Source: Corallococcus soli
GTDB taxonomy: Bacteria; Myxococcota; Myxococcia; Myxococcales; Myxococcaceae
Length of the DNA stretch: 64,000 nt
NCBI RefSeq assembly: GCF_014930455.1
Contig: NZ_JAAIYO010000017.1
Location: forward strand, 62,001-126,000
Direction of reading: 5' to 3'
Shown: in pieces, positions 26,414 to 41,077 of the stretch
How positions within the stretch are numbered: position 1 is the first letter of the stretch
Layout: each line of letters opens with the position of its first letter
Position numbers and translations under genes: made by a program
Notes under the pieces: model-generated
The model's input: only the letters and a program-made list of their open reading frames with translations
What the model was told of the DNA's origin: nothing
The model's database searches: none

Positions 26414-27520
26414 CTAAGCCTCCGAGTCGGTGGCTGCCGGGAGCGTGAAGGCGAAGGTGCTCCCCCTTCCTGGCTCGCTCTCCGCCCAGAGCTTTCCCCC
26501 GTGGGCTTCCACGATGCCCCGGGAGATGTAGAGCCCGAGCCCCAGGCCCCGTCTGTCTTCGGTGCGGGCCTGCCAGAACCGCTCGAAGACGTGCTCCAGC
26601 TGCGGGCTCGCGATCCCTGCGCCGGAGTCCGTCACGGAGAAGCGGACGTCCTGGGCCACCGGCTCCACCCGAAGCGAGATCCTCCCCCCCGCCTCGGTGA
26701 ACTTGATGGCGTTGGACAGCAGGTTCGCGAGCACCTGGAGGACCCGCTCATGGTCGAACTTCGCCATCAGCGTGTTGCCGCGAATCTCCGCTTCGAGCAG
26801 GAGGCCCTGGGCGGAGGCCAGGGGCTGGAACGCTTCGAGTGAGTCGCGCACGAGCGCGGTCGCGTCCTGCAACGCGGGCGTCAGTCGGATCCGGCCCGCC
26901 TCGATGCTGGCCACGTCCACCAGGTCTCCAATCAACCGGTTCATCCGCGCGGTGAAGCGCTGGAGCTTCTCGGCGGCCTGGGCCGTCCTGCGGCCCACGT
27001 CGTCGTCGGCGGCATGGCGCTTGAGCAGGGCGGACTGCAGGGCGATGCCCCCGAGGAGCGTGCGCAGGTCGTGGCTGACCATGCCCATGAACTCGTCCCG
27101 CGTCGCCAGCCCTTCATCGGCGTGCGCCCGCTCCACCAGCAGCCGCGTGTCGGTCTCCGCCCGCTCCAGGTGGAGCAGGGCGGAGAGGGCGCGCATCCGA
27201 TCCTCGCGTTCGTCGCGCAGCTCCGCGTCCGCGGTCGCGCGTTCTCCCTGGAGGGCTGCGTCCTCGTGGGCCCGCTCCTGGAGCACGGCCCCCTGTTCCT
27301 TCGGGGTGCCACGCCCCGCCAGCCGCGCATCCGCGTTGTCGCGGGCCGTGCGGAGGGACTCATCCGCCAGTTCCCGCGCCTTGTCGATGGCGGCATCCGA
27401 CCCCTCTTCAATGGCGGCCTGCCGACGGGCGTATTCGCTGTCTGACTTCTCCCGCTCCACGCGGAGACCTTCATCCGTGTGGTCACGCTGGGGGTGTTCC
27501 TTGAGATCCTTGTTCGCCAT
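26414..27520 (-). CDS. Soluble sensor histidine kinase with charged coiled-coil N-terminus
   Basis: A 368-residue protein. ATG 27520 has a perfect AGGAGG 7 nt upstream. Residues 1-~140 are highly charged and probably coiled coil, with a recurring D-x-x-L-x-x-E-R-like pattern (TDEGLRVER, ADESLRTAR, TDTRLLVER, ADEGLATRD) and no PAS, GAF or membrane segment. A HisKA domain follows, with H-box FMGMVSHDLRTLLGGI (phospho-acceptor His150). The ATPase domain has the N-box (LANLLSNAIKF), G1 (VTDSGAGI) and G2 (RRGLGLGLYISRGIV). No response regulator is adjacent, so it is an orphan kinase. The input signal is unknown. Confidence 0.88.
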   Translation of the reverse strand: MANKDLKEHPQRDHTDEGLRVEREKSDSEYARRQAAIEEGSDAAIDKARELADESLRTARDNADARLAGRGTPKEQGAVLQERAHEDAALQGERATADAELRDEREDRMRALSALLHLERAETDTRLLVERAHADEGLATRDEFMGMVSHDLRTLLGGIALQSALLKRHAADDDVGRRTAQAAEKLQRFTARMNRLIGDLVDVASIEAGRIRLTPALQDATALVRDSLEAFQPLASAQGLLLEAEIRGNTLMAKFDHERVLQVLANLLSNAIKFTEAGGRISLRVEPVAQDVRFSVTDSGAGIASPQLEHVFERFWQARTEDRRGLGLGLYISRGIVEAHGGKLWAESEPGRGSTFAFTLPAATDSEA

Positions 27521-27659
27521 GGGGCAGCCTCCTCTGAAAGGCCTCCCCCAAGGAAGGACGGCCCTCTGGAAACGGCCTGCTTGGAGGTTCCCCGACATTT
27601 CGCGGAGCCCCGCGCCCGGGCCCTTCCGCGTCTCCCCAAGAGGCCTGCCCGGGCCGGCC

Positions 27660-28094
27660 TCAGCTTCGCGGTCGTCGCGGGGCTTTCTTCCGCGCTCCCA
27701 TCGCGCCAGACGCGGCGGCTCGCAGGAGGCGGCGGAAGGTGGGGCACTCCATGTGGCTCGGCGCGCGACAGGCTGCGGCGTGCCGCAGGCCATCGCGCAT
27801 GGCGCGAAGCTCGCGGAGCGTCCGGTCCAGCTCCTCCGCCTTGGCCGCGAGCAACCGCCGGTCGATGCGCGGCTGTCCGTCCGGCCCGAACATGCTCGCC
27901 AGCTCATCGAGCGAAAAGCCGGCGGCTTGCCCCATCGCGATCAAGGCCAGCCGCTCCAGCACGCCAGGCTCGAACAGCCGGCGCAGGCCCCGCCTGCCAA
28001 TGGAGGAGATCAGCCCCTTCTCTTCATAGAACCGCAGCGTCGAGGCAGGAACGCCCGCGCGCCGCGCCACCTCGGTGATGTCCAGGTCTTCCAC
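27660..28094 (-). CDS. MerR family transcriptional regulator with C-x7-C motif
   Basis: A 144-residue regulator starting at GTG 28094 with GAGG about 8 nt upstream. The N-terminal winged helix is typical: DITEVARRAGVPASTLRFYE, then EKGLISSIGRRGLRRLF. The dimerisation helix follows (KAEELDRTLRELRAMRDGL). The C-terminal loop has Cys109-RAPSHME-Cys117, a C-x7-C spacing like the metal loop of CueR and ZntR, within CPTFRRLL. It is divergent from a methyltransferase gene across a SoxR-like operator (28099-28129) and presumably activates that gene and its own transcription on binding its inducer. The inducer (metal ion, thiol-reactive or redox compound) is not known. Confidence 0.85.
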   Translation of the reverse strand: MEDLDITEVARRAGVPASTLRFYEEKGLISSIGRRGLRRLFEPGVLERLALIAMGQAAGFSLDELASMFGPDGQPRIDRRLLAAKAEELDRTLRELRAMRDGLRHAAACRAPSHMECPTFRRLLRAAASGAMGARKKAPRRPRS

Positions 28095-37919: not shown

Positions 37920-38004
37920 CACCCGCGACGTTACTGCTTTTGCTGGACGCGCACGCGGTCCAACCCCGCGAGCGGCCACCGGGCGCCGTCGCTCCTGGCG
38001 CGCG

Positions 38005-40014
38005 TCAGGCGCCCGCTTCGCTCGCGATGTCGGTGAGGGCCACGACGAGGGTGTCCAGCTCCCAGTCGATGGCGAACGTGGCGGCCTGCACCCGCGCGGG
38101 AGGCTTCGAGGCGCTGGCGAGCAGTCCCCGGGCGCGCCGGAGGGCGGCTGCGAGCCCCTTCGCTTCGAGGAAGAGGAGCGTCCCCGTGAGCCCCTGGCAC
38201 AGGTGCTCGTAGTCGTCGCGCGCGCCCTCCGTGAGCGACGCCATGAGCGCGGGGCGCGCCTGCTCCAGATCCTGGAGGGCGAGCCGGGCCAGCGCCGCGC
38301 GCGCCTGGGAGTCTCCCGCCGCCCGCTGCCCGAGCTTCGCGAAGCTGAAGTCCTGCGCCAGGGCCAGCGGATTGTCGGCGGAGGCGGTGGGCTCGGGGGC
38401 ACGGAGGACCGGCGCCGGCGTGTGTTCGGGCCGGTCCGGAAGTTCGCGCGACGTGCACCGCGCCATCTTGTGGAAGAGGACGTCCGCGTCGAAGGGCTTG
38501 CCGATGAAGTCCGTGAAGCCAGAGGCCAGGATGCGGCCCTCCTGCCAGGCCCGCGCGGAGGCGGAGATGGCGATGACGGGCAGCTTGCGCAGCCGCTCGT
38601 CCGGGAGCTGCCGGATGACCTTCAGGGCATCGAAGCCACCCAGCTCCGGCATGTGCAGGTCCATCAGCACAAGCTCGTAGGTGCCTTCGCGCAGCCGCTC
38701 CACCGCCTGCTGCCCGTTCTTGACGGCGTCGAATACGACGCCCCAGTGCTCGAACCAGCGGGCGAGCACGTAGGTGTTGACCTCGCTGTCCTCGACCACG
38801 AGCACCCGCAGGCCCTGGAGCCCCCGCGTGGGCGATGCGCGGTCGGGCGCCGTGTCGGGGATGCCCGCGCGTGCCTTCATGCGCAGATCGAAGCAGAAGC
38901 GGGTCCCCTTTCCCAGCTCACTGCTCACGGCCATCTTGCTTCCATGCAGCTCCAGCAGCTTGCGGCTGATGGAGAGCCCCAGGCCCGTGCCGCCGTACTT
39001 CATCCCGATGTCGTAGTTCGCCTGGGCGTACTCCTCGAAGATGGCGGCGATGCGGTCCGCGGAGATCCCAATCCCCGTGTCGCTCACCTGGACGGTGAGG
39101 TCGCACACGTCGCCGTCCCGGGACCGGACGACGACGGAGAGCGTGACGTGACCCTTCTCCGTGAACTTCAGGGCGTTGCTCACGAGGTTCGTGAGGATCT
39201 GCCCGAGCTTGAGCGGATCTCCCAGGAGGCAGTGGGGGAGCTGCGCGTCCAGCTCCACCCGGAGCTGGAGCTTCTTCTCCTCGGCCCGGGCGGCCTGGCC
39301 ATTCACGATGCCGCTGATCAGCTCCCGGGGATCGAACTCACGCTGCTCCAGCGCGAGCTGGCCCGCCTCGATCTTGCTCCAATCAAGGATGTCGTTGACC
39401 ATCGCGAGCAGGGTGCCGGAGGACGCGCCGAGGACGCGCAGGTACTTCGCCTGCTTGTCCGTCAGGGACGTCATCCCCATGAGCCGGGTGGCGGCGGTGA
39501 TGGCGTTGACGGGGTTGCGCACCTCATGGCTGAGGGTCGCCAGGAGGCCCGCCTTGGACTGGGCGAGCTGTTCCGCCTTCCGGCGCGCCAGCAGCAGCTC
39601 GCGCTCGTAGCGCTTGCGGTCCGTCATGTTGAAGACGGTGAGCCGGACGCAGAGGGGTCTGCCCAGCGCATCCCGCATCTGCACGGCGTTGATCAGCGCC
39701 GGCAGCGGAGGGCTGCCGGGGCAGGTCAGCTCCAGGGAGAGTTCGCGGACGAAGCCCTGCATCTGGAGGAGCGGCGCGAGGTGCGTCTCGTGGAAGATGC
39801 GGCCCGGGACCGTGAGCAGCTCGGAGAACCGCTTGCGTCCGACCAGGGCTTCTCGTGAATGGCCGGTCCAGGTCAGGAAGGTCTGGTTGACCTTGACGAT
39901 GAGCCCCTCGGGGGTCGTGGAGAGGTAGCCGCACGGCGCGTTCTCATAGAGATCCTCCGCCGACTCCTCGAATGGTGCCCCCCTGGAGCTTGTGTCCTCC
40001 GCGTCATCCCGCAT
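38005..40014 (-). CDS. Hybrid sensor histidine kinase with RsbP-like PAS, receiver and Hpt-like domains
   Basis: A 669-residue soluble protein. PAS domain (~23-135) beginning YENAPCGYLSTTPEGLIVKV, with LTVPGRIFHETHLAPLLQMQ and PALINAVQMR; its layout closely follows the PAS domain of RsbP. HisKA: LATLSHEVRNPVNAITAAT (His163). ATPase: N-box TNLVSNALKF, G1 SDTGIGIS, G2 GGTGLGLSIS. Receiver: VLVVEDSEVNTYVL with Asp452 in LVLMDLHMPELGG and Lys506 in GKPFD. The C-terminal helical segment has His604 in EHLCQGLTG, matching the H-x3-G Hpt motif with the usual Lys replaced by Gln. It starts 5 nt after the stop of an RsbQ-like hydrolase gene. It is probably a phosphorelay that reads a signal delivered by the hydrolase. 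Confidence 0.9.
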   Translation of the reverse strand: MRDDAEDTSSRGAPFEESAEDLYENAPCGYLSTTPEGLIVKVNQTFLTWTGHSREALVGRKRFSELLTVPGRIFHETHLAPLLQMQGFVRELSLELTCPGSPPLPALINAVQMRDALGRPLCVRLTVFNMTDRKRYERELLLARRKAEQLAQSKAGLLATLSHEVRNPVNAITAATRLMGMTSLTDKQAKYLRVLGASSGTLLAMVNDILDWSKIEAGQLALEQREFDPRELISGIVNGQAARAEEKKLQLRVELDAQLPHCLLGDPLKLGQILTNLVSNALKFTEKGHVTLSVVVRSRDGDVCDLTVQVSDTGIGISADRIAAIFEEYAQANYDIGMKYGGTGLGLSISRKLLELHGSKMAVSSELGKGTRFCFDLRMKARAGIPDTAPDRASPTRGLQGLRVLVVEDSEVNTYVLARWFEHWGVVFDAVKNGQQAVERLREGTYELVLMDLHMPELGGFDALKVIRQLPDERLRKLPVIAISASARAWQEGRILASGFTDFIGKPFDADVLFHKMARCTSRELPDRPEHTPAPVLRAPEPTASADNPLALAQDFSFAKLGQRAAGDSQARAALARLALQDLEQARPALMASLTEGARDDYEHLCQGLTGTLLFLEAKGLAAALRRARGLLASASKPPARVQAATFAIDWELDTLVVALTDIASEAGA

Positions 40015-40021
40015 CGTCGGC

Positions 40022-40816
40022 TCAGGTGCCCAGGTAGGCTTTCATGGCGGCGACGGTCTCCGCGGGAGCGCTCAGGTTCGGGCAATGCCCGGTCGCCTTC
40101 ATGAGCACCAGCTCGGCGGTGGGCAGGTTCCGGAACACGTACTCGCCCACGGCCTCCGACGCGATGACGTCATGGGAGCACTGGAGGACCAGGGACGGCG
40201 TCTTGACCCTGGGCAGTTCGGCCCGGTGGTCCGACAGGAAGGTGACGCGCGCGAAGTGCTTCGCGATCTCCGGATCCGTCCGACAGAAGCTGTTGGTGAG
40301 CTCCTCGCCGAGTTCGGCCCGGTCCGGGTTGCCCATGATGACGGGCGCCATCGTGCTGGACCAGCCCAGGTAGTTGTCGTCGAGCGACTCCAGCAATTGT
40401 TCGATGTCCTCACGCGAGAAGCCGCCGACATACCCCTCGTCGTTGATGTAACAGGGCGACGGGCCCACGAGCACGAGCCTGTCGAAGCGCTCCGGCTCCC
40501 GGATGGCCGCCAGCACCCCGACCATCGCGCTCACCGAGTGTCCGACGAAGACCCCCTGCTGGAGGTCCAGCGCGTGGCAGACCTCCAGGACGTCATCCGC
40601 GTAGCCGTCCAGCGTCGAGTACTTCGCGCGGTCATAGGCGGCGATCTCCGAGCCACCGGCCCCCACGTGGTCGAAGAGCACGGTGCGGTAGTCCCGCTCG
40701 AACTCGGGCGCGACGAACCGCCACATGTTCTGGTCGCAGCCGAAGCCATGGGAGAAGAGCATGGGCCGGGCGCCCTGACCCTTCACCTTGACGTTGTTCC
40801 GAGCCAGCACCCCCAT
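40022..40816 (-). CDS. rsbQ: RsbQ-like alpha/beta hydrolase
   Basis: A 264-residue protein resembling RsbQ along its whole length. It starts GVLARNNVKVKGQGARPMLF, then SHGFGCDQNMW and LFDHVGAGGS. Ser94 lies in VFVGHSVSAM, Asp216 in LQCSHDVIA and His244 in ATGHCPNLS, the full RsbQ triad at nearly the same spacing. VLVGPSPCYINDEGYVGGF is also typical. RsbQ and the related KAI2/D14 receptors bind or hydrolyse a small hydrophobic ligand; in Bacillus, RsbQ is needed for RsbP to sense energy stress through its PAS domain. Here the partner gene 5 nt downstream encodes a PAS-containing hybrid kinase. ATG 40816 is chosen because it aligns with the family start. Confidence 0.92.
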   Translation of the reverse strand: MGVLARNNVKVKGQGARPMLFSHGFGCDQNMWRFVAPEFERDYRTVLFDHVGAGGSEIAAYDRAKYSTLDGYADDVLEVCHALDLQQGVFVGHSVSAMVGVLAAIREPERFDRLVLVGPSPCYINDEGYVGGFSREDIEQLLESLDDNYLGWSSTMAPVIMGNPDRAELGEELTNSFCRTDPEIAKHFARVTFLSDHRAELPRVKTPSLVLQCSHDVIASEAVGEYVFRNLPTAELVLMKATGHCPNLSAPAETVAAMKAYLGT

Positions 40817-41077
40817 ATGCGCCTCCCGTGATGAAGGGGAAAGACCGACGTTCACTCCCAGGCCAGGCGCGCGGCATCCGGCCGTCGCTCCCGTATCCAA
40901 ACGGCGGGAGCATGGGCCTTACTTCATTGTTCCTTCGCTGAGTTTATGGATCACGCCCGGAATCCGTGAAGTGTCCGTGTCGGCTTGGCGTGAGTCTGGA
41001 ATTCGCCAGGGCTGGCGGTTCGGACATGGCTTCCAGGCTCGTTCGGACACCTGCCCCGTCGTCGAGCGCTCACTCGC
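40817..41077. other. Intergenic region upstream of rsbQ-like gene
   Basis: About 260 nt between the rsbQ-like gene and the end of the EamA transporter gene, both on the minus strand. It should hold the promoter of the rsbQ-kinase operon. The least GC-rich part is about 40918-40960. No clear -35/-10 pair or gene could be assigned. Confidence 0.35.

Follow-up and report, generated by a model that had tools for sequence, protein, structure and literature searches.

What does a hydrolase of the RsbQ family do when its neighbour is a histidine kinase, given that a known member of the family, in Bacillus subtilis, is paired with the PAS-containing phosphatase RsbP? The question is raised by two genes in a stretch of 64,000 nucleotides from Corallococcus soli (contig NZ_JAAIYO010000017.1, positions 62,001 to 126,000; the whole stretch is referred to here as the window, and coordinates count from its first letter), namely a gene for an alpha/beta hydrolase and, directly downstream, a gene for a hybrid histidine kinase that begins with a PAS domain. 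Here, we read the pair as an RsbQ-PAS sensing module whose output is a hybrid histidine kinase, and in which the signal would pass through the PAS domain and a following helix and the phosphate would leave in trans, a reading to which we give a probability of roughly 0.85. A sequence-only reading of the same DNA had already proposed that the sensing unit serves a kinase instead of a phosphatase, and this proposal is borne out by the HisKA, HATPase_c and Response_reg domains of the partner, by the grouping of its PAS domain and by the conservation of the gene pair. The features concerned are as follows.

40022..40816, minus strand: RsbQ-type alpha/beta hydrolase, 264 amino acids (1wom match; intact Ser94, Asp216 and His244)
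40015..40021, minus strand: intergenic gap of 7 nt (from the coordinates of both genes)
38005..40014, minus strand: PAS hybrid histidine kinase, 669 amino acids (Pfam domains and translation)
39619..39951, minus strand: RsbP-type PAS domain, about residues 22-132 (Pfam, ten of ten class residues, PAS tree)
39361..39555, minus strand: HisKA, residues 154-218, phospho-acceptor His163 with its codon at 39526-39528 (Pfam, alignment, and a predicted helix from residue 130 leading in)
38878..39222, minus strand: HATPase_c, residues 265-379 (Pfam)
38467..38805, minus strand: receiver, residues 404-516, phospho-acceptor Asp452 with its codon at 38659-38661 (Pfam, alignment)
38014..38343, minus strand: Hpt-fold domain without phospho-histidine, about residues 558-667, with Gln607 in the histidine column (alignment, predicted fold)
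37951..41077, no strand assigned: insertion of about 3.1 kb containing the pair (comparison with two congeners)

A hydrolase gene and a PAS gene that stay together

The hydrolase belongs to the RsbQ family by a wide margin, its best match in the PDB being RsbQ of B. subtilis (1wom, E 8e-98, 330 bits), followed by 3qvm (261 bits) and 7ukb (210 bits) and then by a long series of plant KAI2 and D14 chains at about 200 bits and below; the first chain from another family, 3om8, scores 67 bits. The Ser94, Asp216 and His244 named as an RsbQ-type triad in the sequence-only reading are all in place, and the triad is kept in all 150 aligned members of the family, that of the window counted. The genome, of 9.4 Mb, holds one gene of this family, with 602 bits here against 54.6 bits for the next hydrolase place, and, among the matches listed, the closest record under a species name that also has both genes is that of Corallococcus praedator, whose hydrolase is 89% identical. 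The two genes are separated by 7 nt (40015-40021), not by the 5 nt first reported, and are likely to be carried on a single transcript.

The same arrangement recurs widely. A PAS protein is encoded directly downstream on the same strand at 77 of the 80 best hydrolase loci in the genome collection, these being the best 80 of at least 586 confirmed loci, with a few genomes contributing two; at two of the remaining three (L062 and L088) the contig ends where the partner would be seen, and the third, L070, is taken up below. All three loci, at which no PAS was seen, fall within the 61-row RsbQ group of a hydrolase tree built on 90 of the 150 rows. Within the Myxococcaceae, where 41 of 96 genomes have an RsbQ-family gene at E 1e-50 or better and up to five each, 68 loci were found besides that of the window; a PAS protein adjoins the hydrolase at 40/40 of those scoring at least 300 bits and at 0/28 of those scoring 271 bits or less. 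Some close myxobacterial loci are counted both in this set of 40 and among the best 80. The outputs of the 77 partners, in classes assigned from hand-chosen seed sequences, are histidine kinases with a receiver (27), histidine kinases (24), PPM phosphatases (20) and an HWE kinase (1), with five unclassified. One of the 40 myxobacterial loci, L136 (3325-5079, minus strand), encodes an RsbQ-linked protein that has three PAS stretches and a GGDEF domain as its output.

The history of the locus itself is that of a unit. From the stop codon of an EamA-type transporter gene to the ATG of the next gene, for a small membrane protein, the distance is 3158 bp in the window and 45 bp in the congeners G026 and G023, with flanks that are 89-91% identical in DNA on both sides, so that the window carries about 3.1 kb extra at a site left unoccupied in these two congeners. 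No RsbQ was found in G026, and G023 has the pair elsewhere in its genome. Ten of the 16 genomes of the genus, that of the window included, carry the pair, and within the fetched flanks these ten copies stand in at least four surroundings, namely that of the window, that of L165, that of L166 and L167 (which share the upstream flank) and that of L168-L173 (with at least one flank in common). Because the surroundings differ, movement of the pair is favoured over loss in G026 and G023, on a comparison of two genomes. With matches restricted to those in register with the pair, the DNA shared between the window and the 13 closest fetched copies starts no earlier than -42 and ends no later than +2819 relative to the hydrolase start (the kinase stop lies at +2811), the match to L166 stopping at +2369; as this collinear DNA spans both genes and ends there, the pair is kept together. 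Searches for nine neighbouring proteins of the window in the surroundings of 45 homologous loci, five of which duplicate others in the set, gave no match at E 1e-20. That the hydrolase and kinase are two unrelated genes that became neighbours by chance is refuted both by the counts of 77/80 and 40/40, which is also what the genome search suggested in the earlier reading returned, and by the persistence of the pair amid differing surroundings; we give this explanation practically no weight.

The PAS domain, encoded directly 3' of the hydrolase gene and the most N-terminal part of the kinase, is of the type found in RsbP, as had been claimed, and the two stretches quoted in support of that claim are both present in the translation. 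Ten positions describe the class, namely the nine distinguishing residues and P62 named in the text of PMC3183031 (RsbP numbering, in agreement with that text), and all ten are typical in the window (C28, L31, L67, R72, F74, H75, H78, P81, E91 and P105), each being the commonest or second commonest residue at its column among 117 linked PAS domains. In that set the equivalent of RsbP Y59 is His or Tyr in 117/117, that of P62 is Pro in 117/117 and that of E72 is Glu in 115/117. The window also has equivalents of L48, F55, Y59 and E72, the residues at which alanine changes are described as giving null phenotypes in B. subtilis (PMC3183031). The domain ends in NMT and has no DIT motif; DIT is present in 6/118 counted PAS rows, and its absence is therefore not an absolute trait of the class. 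In a tree of 113 PAS domains, with close myxobacterial copies thinned, 104 RsbQ-linked domains, among them those of the window, of PPM-coupled partners and of RsbP, are split from nine others with a Shimodaira-Hasegawa-like approximate likelihood ratio test (SH-aLRT) value of 92, which is the grouping that the sequence-only reading had proposed to check. A profile of the class scores 191 bits here and 52.5 bits at the next-best place in the genome. The PDB held no relative of the domain beyond weak Adagio matches (best E 0.086).

An intact hybrid kinase with an Hpt-fold domain that lacks the histidine

In the kinase, PAS_9, HisKA, HATPase_c and Response_reg score above the Pfam cut-off, and a SpoIIE-type PPM phosphatase output is absent from its Pfam domains. 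His163 is unchanged across 39/39 aligned kinases and Asp452 across 28/28 aligned hybrids, so that, with the HisKA histidine, the ATPase and the receiver aspartate all intact, the protein can be classed as a hybrid kinase. Where an RsbQ-PAS module would have a coiled coil between PAS and output, a continuous helix that runs into HisKA is predicted for residues 130-180, with a predicted local distance difference test (pLDDT) score of about 70. A fold search with the whole kinase returned only kinase and receiver rows and was uninformative on the PAS and C-terminal domains. One other histidine kinase frame, at 26417-27940 on the minus strand, matches this kinase at E 2e-19 and is the sole other match in the window.

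The C-terminal domain is where our reading departs from the earlier one, which had listed the domains of the kinase correctly as far as the receiver and had added an Hpt-like domain, implying a complete phosphorelay. The fold holds up. Pfam finds no Hpt in the window kinase at E 0.1, and its sub-threshold Hpt scores, seen in five of ten partner proteins scanned, include three proteins that are without the domain; residues 548-669, predicted alone, form a helical bundle with a mean pLDDT of 91.5. Ranks 1-5 of a VIA search with this model are Hpt proteins at Z 12.1-10.8, led by 7c1i (Z 12.1, 2.9 Å over 115 residues) and including 3myf (Z 11.8), with other helical bundles next at Z 10.8-10.4, and helical bundles below Z 13 call for care. 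The top eleven Foldseek rows are likewise Hpt or plant and fungal phosphotransfer proteins, the best at E 0.024 and none below 0.001.

Were the domain a working Hpt, the kinase would be a complete His-Asp-His phosphorelay, and the structural matches above, as well as a histidine nearby (His604), point that way. The phospho-histidine column itself tells against it. The alignment took in the window and those 27 of the 40 loci whose proteins exceed 640 amino acids, leaving out 11 shorter forms without the domain, L166, in which it is absent, and L193, which is cut by a contig end; the column holds His in 14/28 proteins and Gln607 in the window. No row of the window clade, the 13 rows set off by a 100/100 branch, has His, the other 12 having Gln, Glu or Arg; the Tyr of L178 is a separate case. 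His604 lies three residues before the column and not in it; the nearest relative, L165, has Arg at this position, and within the clade only L174 and L177 retain the histidine. The congener L166 dispenses with the domain altogether. We can speak of a lost histidine in that Hpt domains in general have it, the root of the tree not being fixed. A working Hpt is on these grounds very improbable, and a phosphorelay through the kinase's own Hpt-like domain, as the earlier reading implied, is unsupported because the phospho-accepting histidine is absent. A built-in His-Asp-His phosphorelay was rejected for the window kinase on account of Gln607.

How the pair may signal

For contact, ligand, direction of control, phosphotransfer and target, we infer the following course. 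The hydrolase would bind, and perhaps cleave, a small hydrophobic molecule, probably butenolide-like, in its Ser-His-Asp pocket, and would contact the N-terminal PAS domains of the kinase dimer. The resulting change would travel along the helix of residues 130-180 to HisKA, and phosphate would then move from His163 to Asp452 inside the kinase. As the C-terminal domain has no histidine to pass it on, phosphate on Asp452 would have to leave in trans, if it goes anywhere, for a response regulator or an Hpt protein. That the hydrolase controls the kinase is very probable.

Whether the hydrolase would act as receptor or as enzyme is a separate matter. Its plant relatives KAI2 and D14 have the catalytic triad and function as receptors, which speaks against the alternative that the hydrolase is an enzyme and not a receptor, with the PAS domain sensing its product and the contact serving delivery. 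In favour of that alternative, the triad is intact in 150/150 family members and the scheme is model 1 of Nadezhdin et al., one of the two sensing models put forward for RsbQ-PAS and left open in the text of PMC3183031; the contact data of 2011 are compatible with both models. We hold product sensing to be a tentative option and rather unlikely.

Several points weigh against an RsbQ-PAS module with a kinase output. At L070, from Rufibacter, an RsbQ that is 63% identical is followed by a gene for a 140-aa protein without a PAS match (L070 6001-7272). The SH-aLRT value of 92 on the PAS branch lies below the mark of 95, with few columns for many rows, and the identity between the PAS domains of the window and of RsbP is modest (36/123 columns). 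No experiment that directly probes contact or control in a kinase-coupled pair was found in the literature, as far as its available text extends. Finally, other open frames of the window gave no receiver match at E 1e-3, so that no target is in sight, nor is a paired response regulator present inside the shared two-gene stretch. These last two results, together with the missing Hpt histidine, are what would be expected of a phosphate sink or kinase antagonist whose receiver and Hpt-fold domain merely tune other two-component pathways. An unlinked target is nevertheless normal, as orphan kinases are common in myxobacteria, and we think a sink improbable; a kinase that passes its phosphate to a partner encoded elsewhere remains the reading we prefer.

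Related hydrolases, other partners and known systems

Among the Myxococcaceae, the 28 hydrolases that lack an RsbP-type PAS neighbour keep the triad and are set apart from the RsbQ class by a branch with SH-aLRT 100; we refer to them as class II. For ten of them (L139, L152, L153 and L158-L164), the next gene on the same strand encodes a GAF-PAS protein, an arrangement here called module II, and in 10/10 of these Myxococcaceae loci the first ATG or GTG of the partner overlaps the hydrolase stop. Nine of the ten partners are kinases, all nine being matched by kinase and receiver searches, and the four that were scanned (L152, L153, L158 and L161) have HisKA, HATPase, receiver and Hpt above the Pfam cut-off; the GAF and PAS labels come from weak Pfam scores in L153 and L158, plus reading by eye. 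The partner in L139 is a class III adenylate/guanylate cyclase (E 9e-66) whose sensor part matches that of the kinases (E 3e-20). The RsbP-PAS profile gave no match to the GAF-PAS sensor at E 10. At eight of the 18 class II loci without a GAF-PAS protein (L137, L138, L145, L146 and L148-L151), a same-strand histidine kinase adjoins the hydrolase, with HAMP at the cut-off in L145 and CHASE8 below it in L146.

A GAF-PAS profile matches 11 of 195 genomes of the phylum, in scans of at most 17 or 13 first-pass candidates per genome, so that weaker relatives may be missed. Ten of the matches are the same loci by coordinates; in the eleventh genome, G122, where the PAS part only is matched, an RsbQ-family hydrolase (228 bits) lies directly upstream of the sensor kinase frame. 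All 11/11 matches adjoin a hydrolase (L253 is listed with the ten loci). As the ten loci were found via their hydrolase, this agreement is partly built in, but the lack of any GAF-PAS match without a hydrolase is not, nor is the fit of the eleventh genome. Outside the phylum, module II was found in 0/22 RsbQ-bearing genomes, which says little, since the set contained no known positive.

The residue after the catalytic serine is Val in 121/121 RsbQ-class hydrolases, Met or Leu in 11/11 of module II, and Val (9), Phe (6) or Leu (3) in the other 18 of class II; it is possible that module II hydrolases have a different ligand. They occur in three places on the hydrolase tree, and hydrolase and sensor have therefore not simply descended together. 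No pairing of RsbQ with an adenylate cyclase or GAF domain was found in the literature by title or abstract, and a looser search gave none by title among the best 10 of 256 matches. We lean slightly towards the view that bacteria use hydrolases of the RsbQ/KAI2 family generally as detachable receptor subunits, which combine with at least two separate classes of partner, namely an RsbP-type PAS cassette that changes place and, for a diverged hydrolase, a GAF-PAS sensor on a His-Asp-His kinase or class III cyclase. If so, butenolide-like signals would reach two-component and cyclic-nucleotide pathways through a receptor fold that plants also use; if module II is real, these hydrolases would be swappable receptors for unlike sensors, which bears on the question of the bacterial ligand.

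The idea of an RsbQ-PAS unit that drives a kinase is not new, having been published in 2011. Nadezhdin, Brody and Price described 45 pairs of RsbQ with an RsbP-type PAS, with phosphatase, histidine kinase and diguanylate cyclase outputs, three of the histidine kinases carrying a response regulator domain; according to the same text, contact between RsbP and RsbQ was shown by two-hybrid and pull-down, and the RsbP change F55A disrupts the interaction (PMC3183031). The coupling is restated in the text of PMC12143880, with an AlphaFold2 model of RsbP and RsbQ as a 2:2 complex. Going by its title as cited in PMC13192556, Melville et al. 2024 deals with how B. subtilis perceives butenolides via RsbQ, and in the text of PMC9828678 and PMC10504578 plant KAI2 is said, with citation, to derive from bacterial RsbQ. 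The terms 'Hpt' and 'Myxococc' are absent from the main text of PMC3183031, figures aside, and a literature search combining RsbQ with Myxococc- found no paper. What the window adds is a myxobacterial member, with its Hpt-fold domain without the histidine and its insertion history, which places the RsbQ-PAS kinase module in the Myxococcaceae; as a self-contained two-gene unit, it is well suited to the question of what RsbQ senses.

Among known systems, the plant KAI2 and D14 receptors for butenolides and strigolactones share the hydrolase family (about 200 bits and below), but the window hydrolase is nearer to RsbQ (330 bits) and its partner is a PAS kinase, whereas that of the plant receptors is an F-box protein. 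The RsbQ-RsbP system of B. subtilis has the same hydrolase family, PAS class and gene order and differs in its output, a PPM phosphatase there and a hybrid kinase in the window. Closest are the RsbQ-PAS kinases described in the text of PMC3183031, which share the hydrolase gene directly upstream, the N-terminal RsbP-type PAS domain with its class residues and without a DIT motif, and the kinase output, in three cases with a response regulator domain; to these the window adds, after the receiver, an Hpt-fold domain that lacks the histidine.

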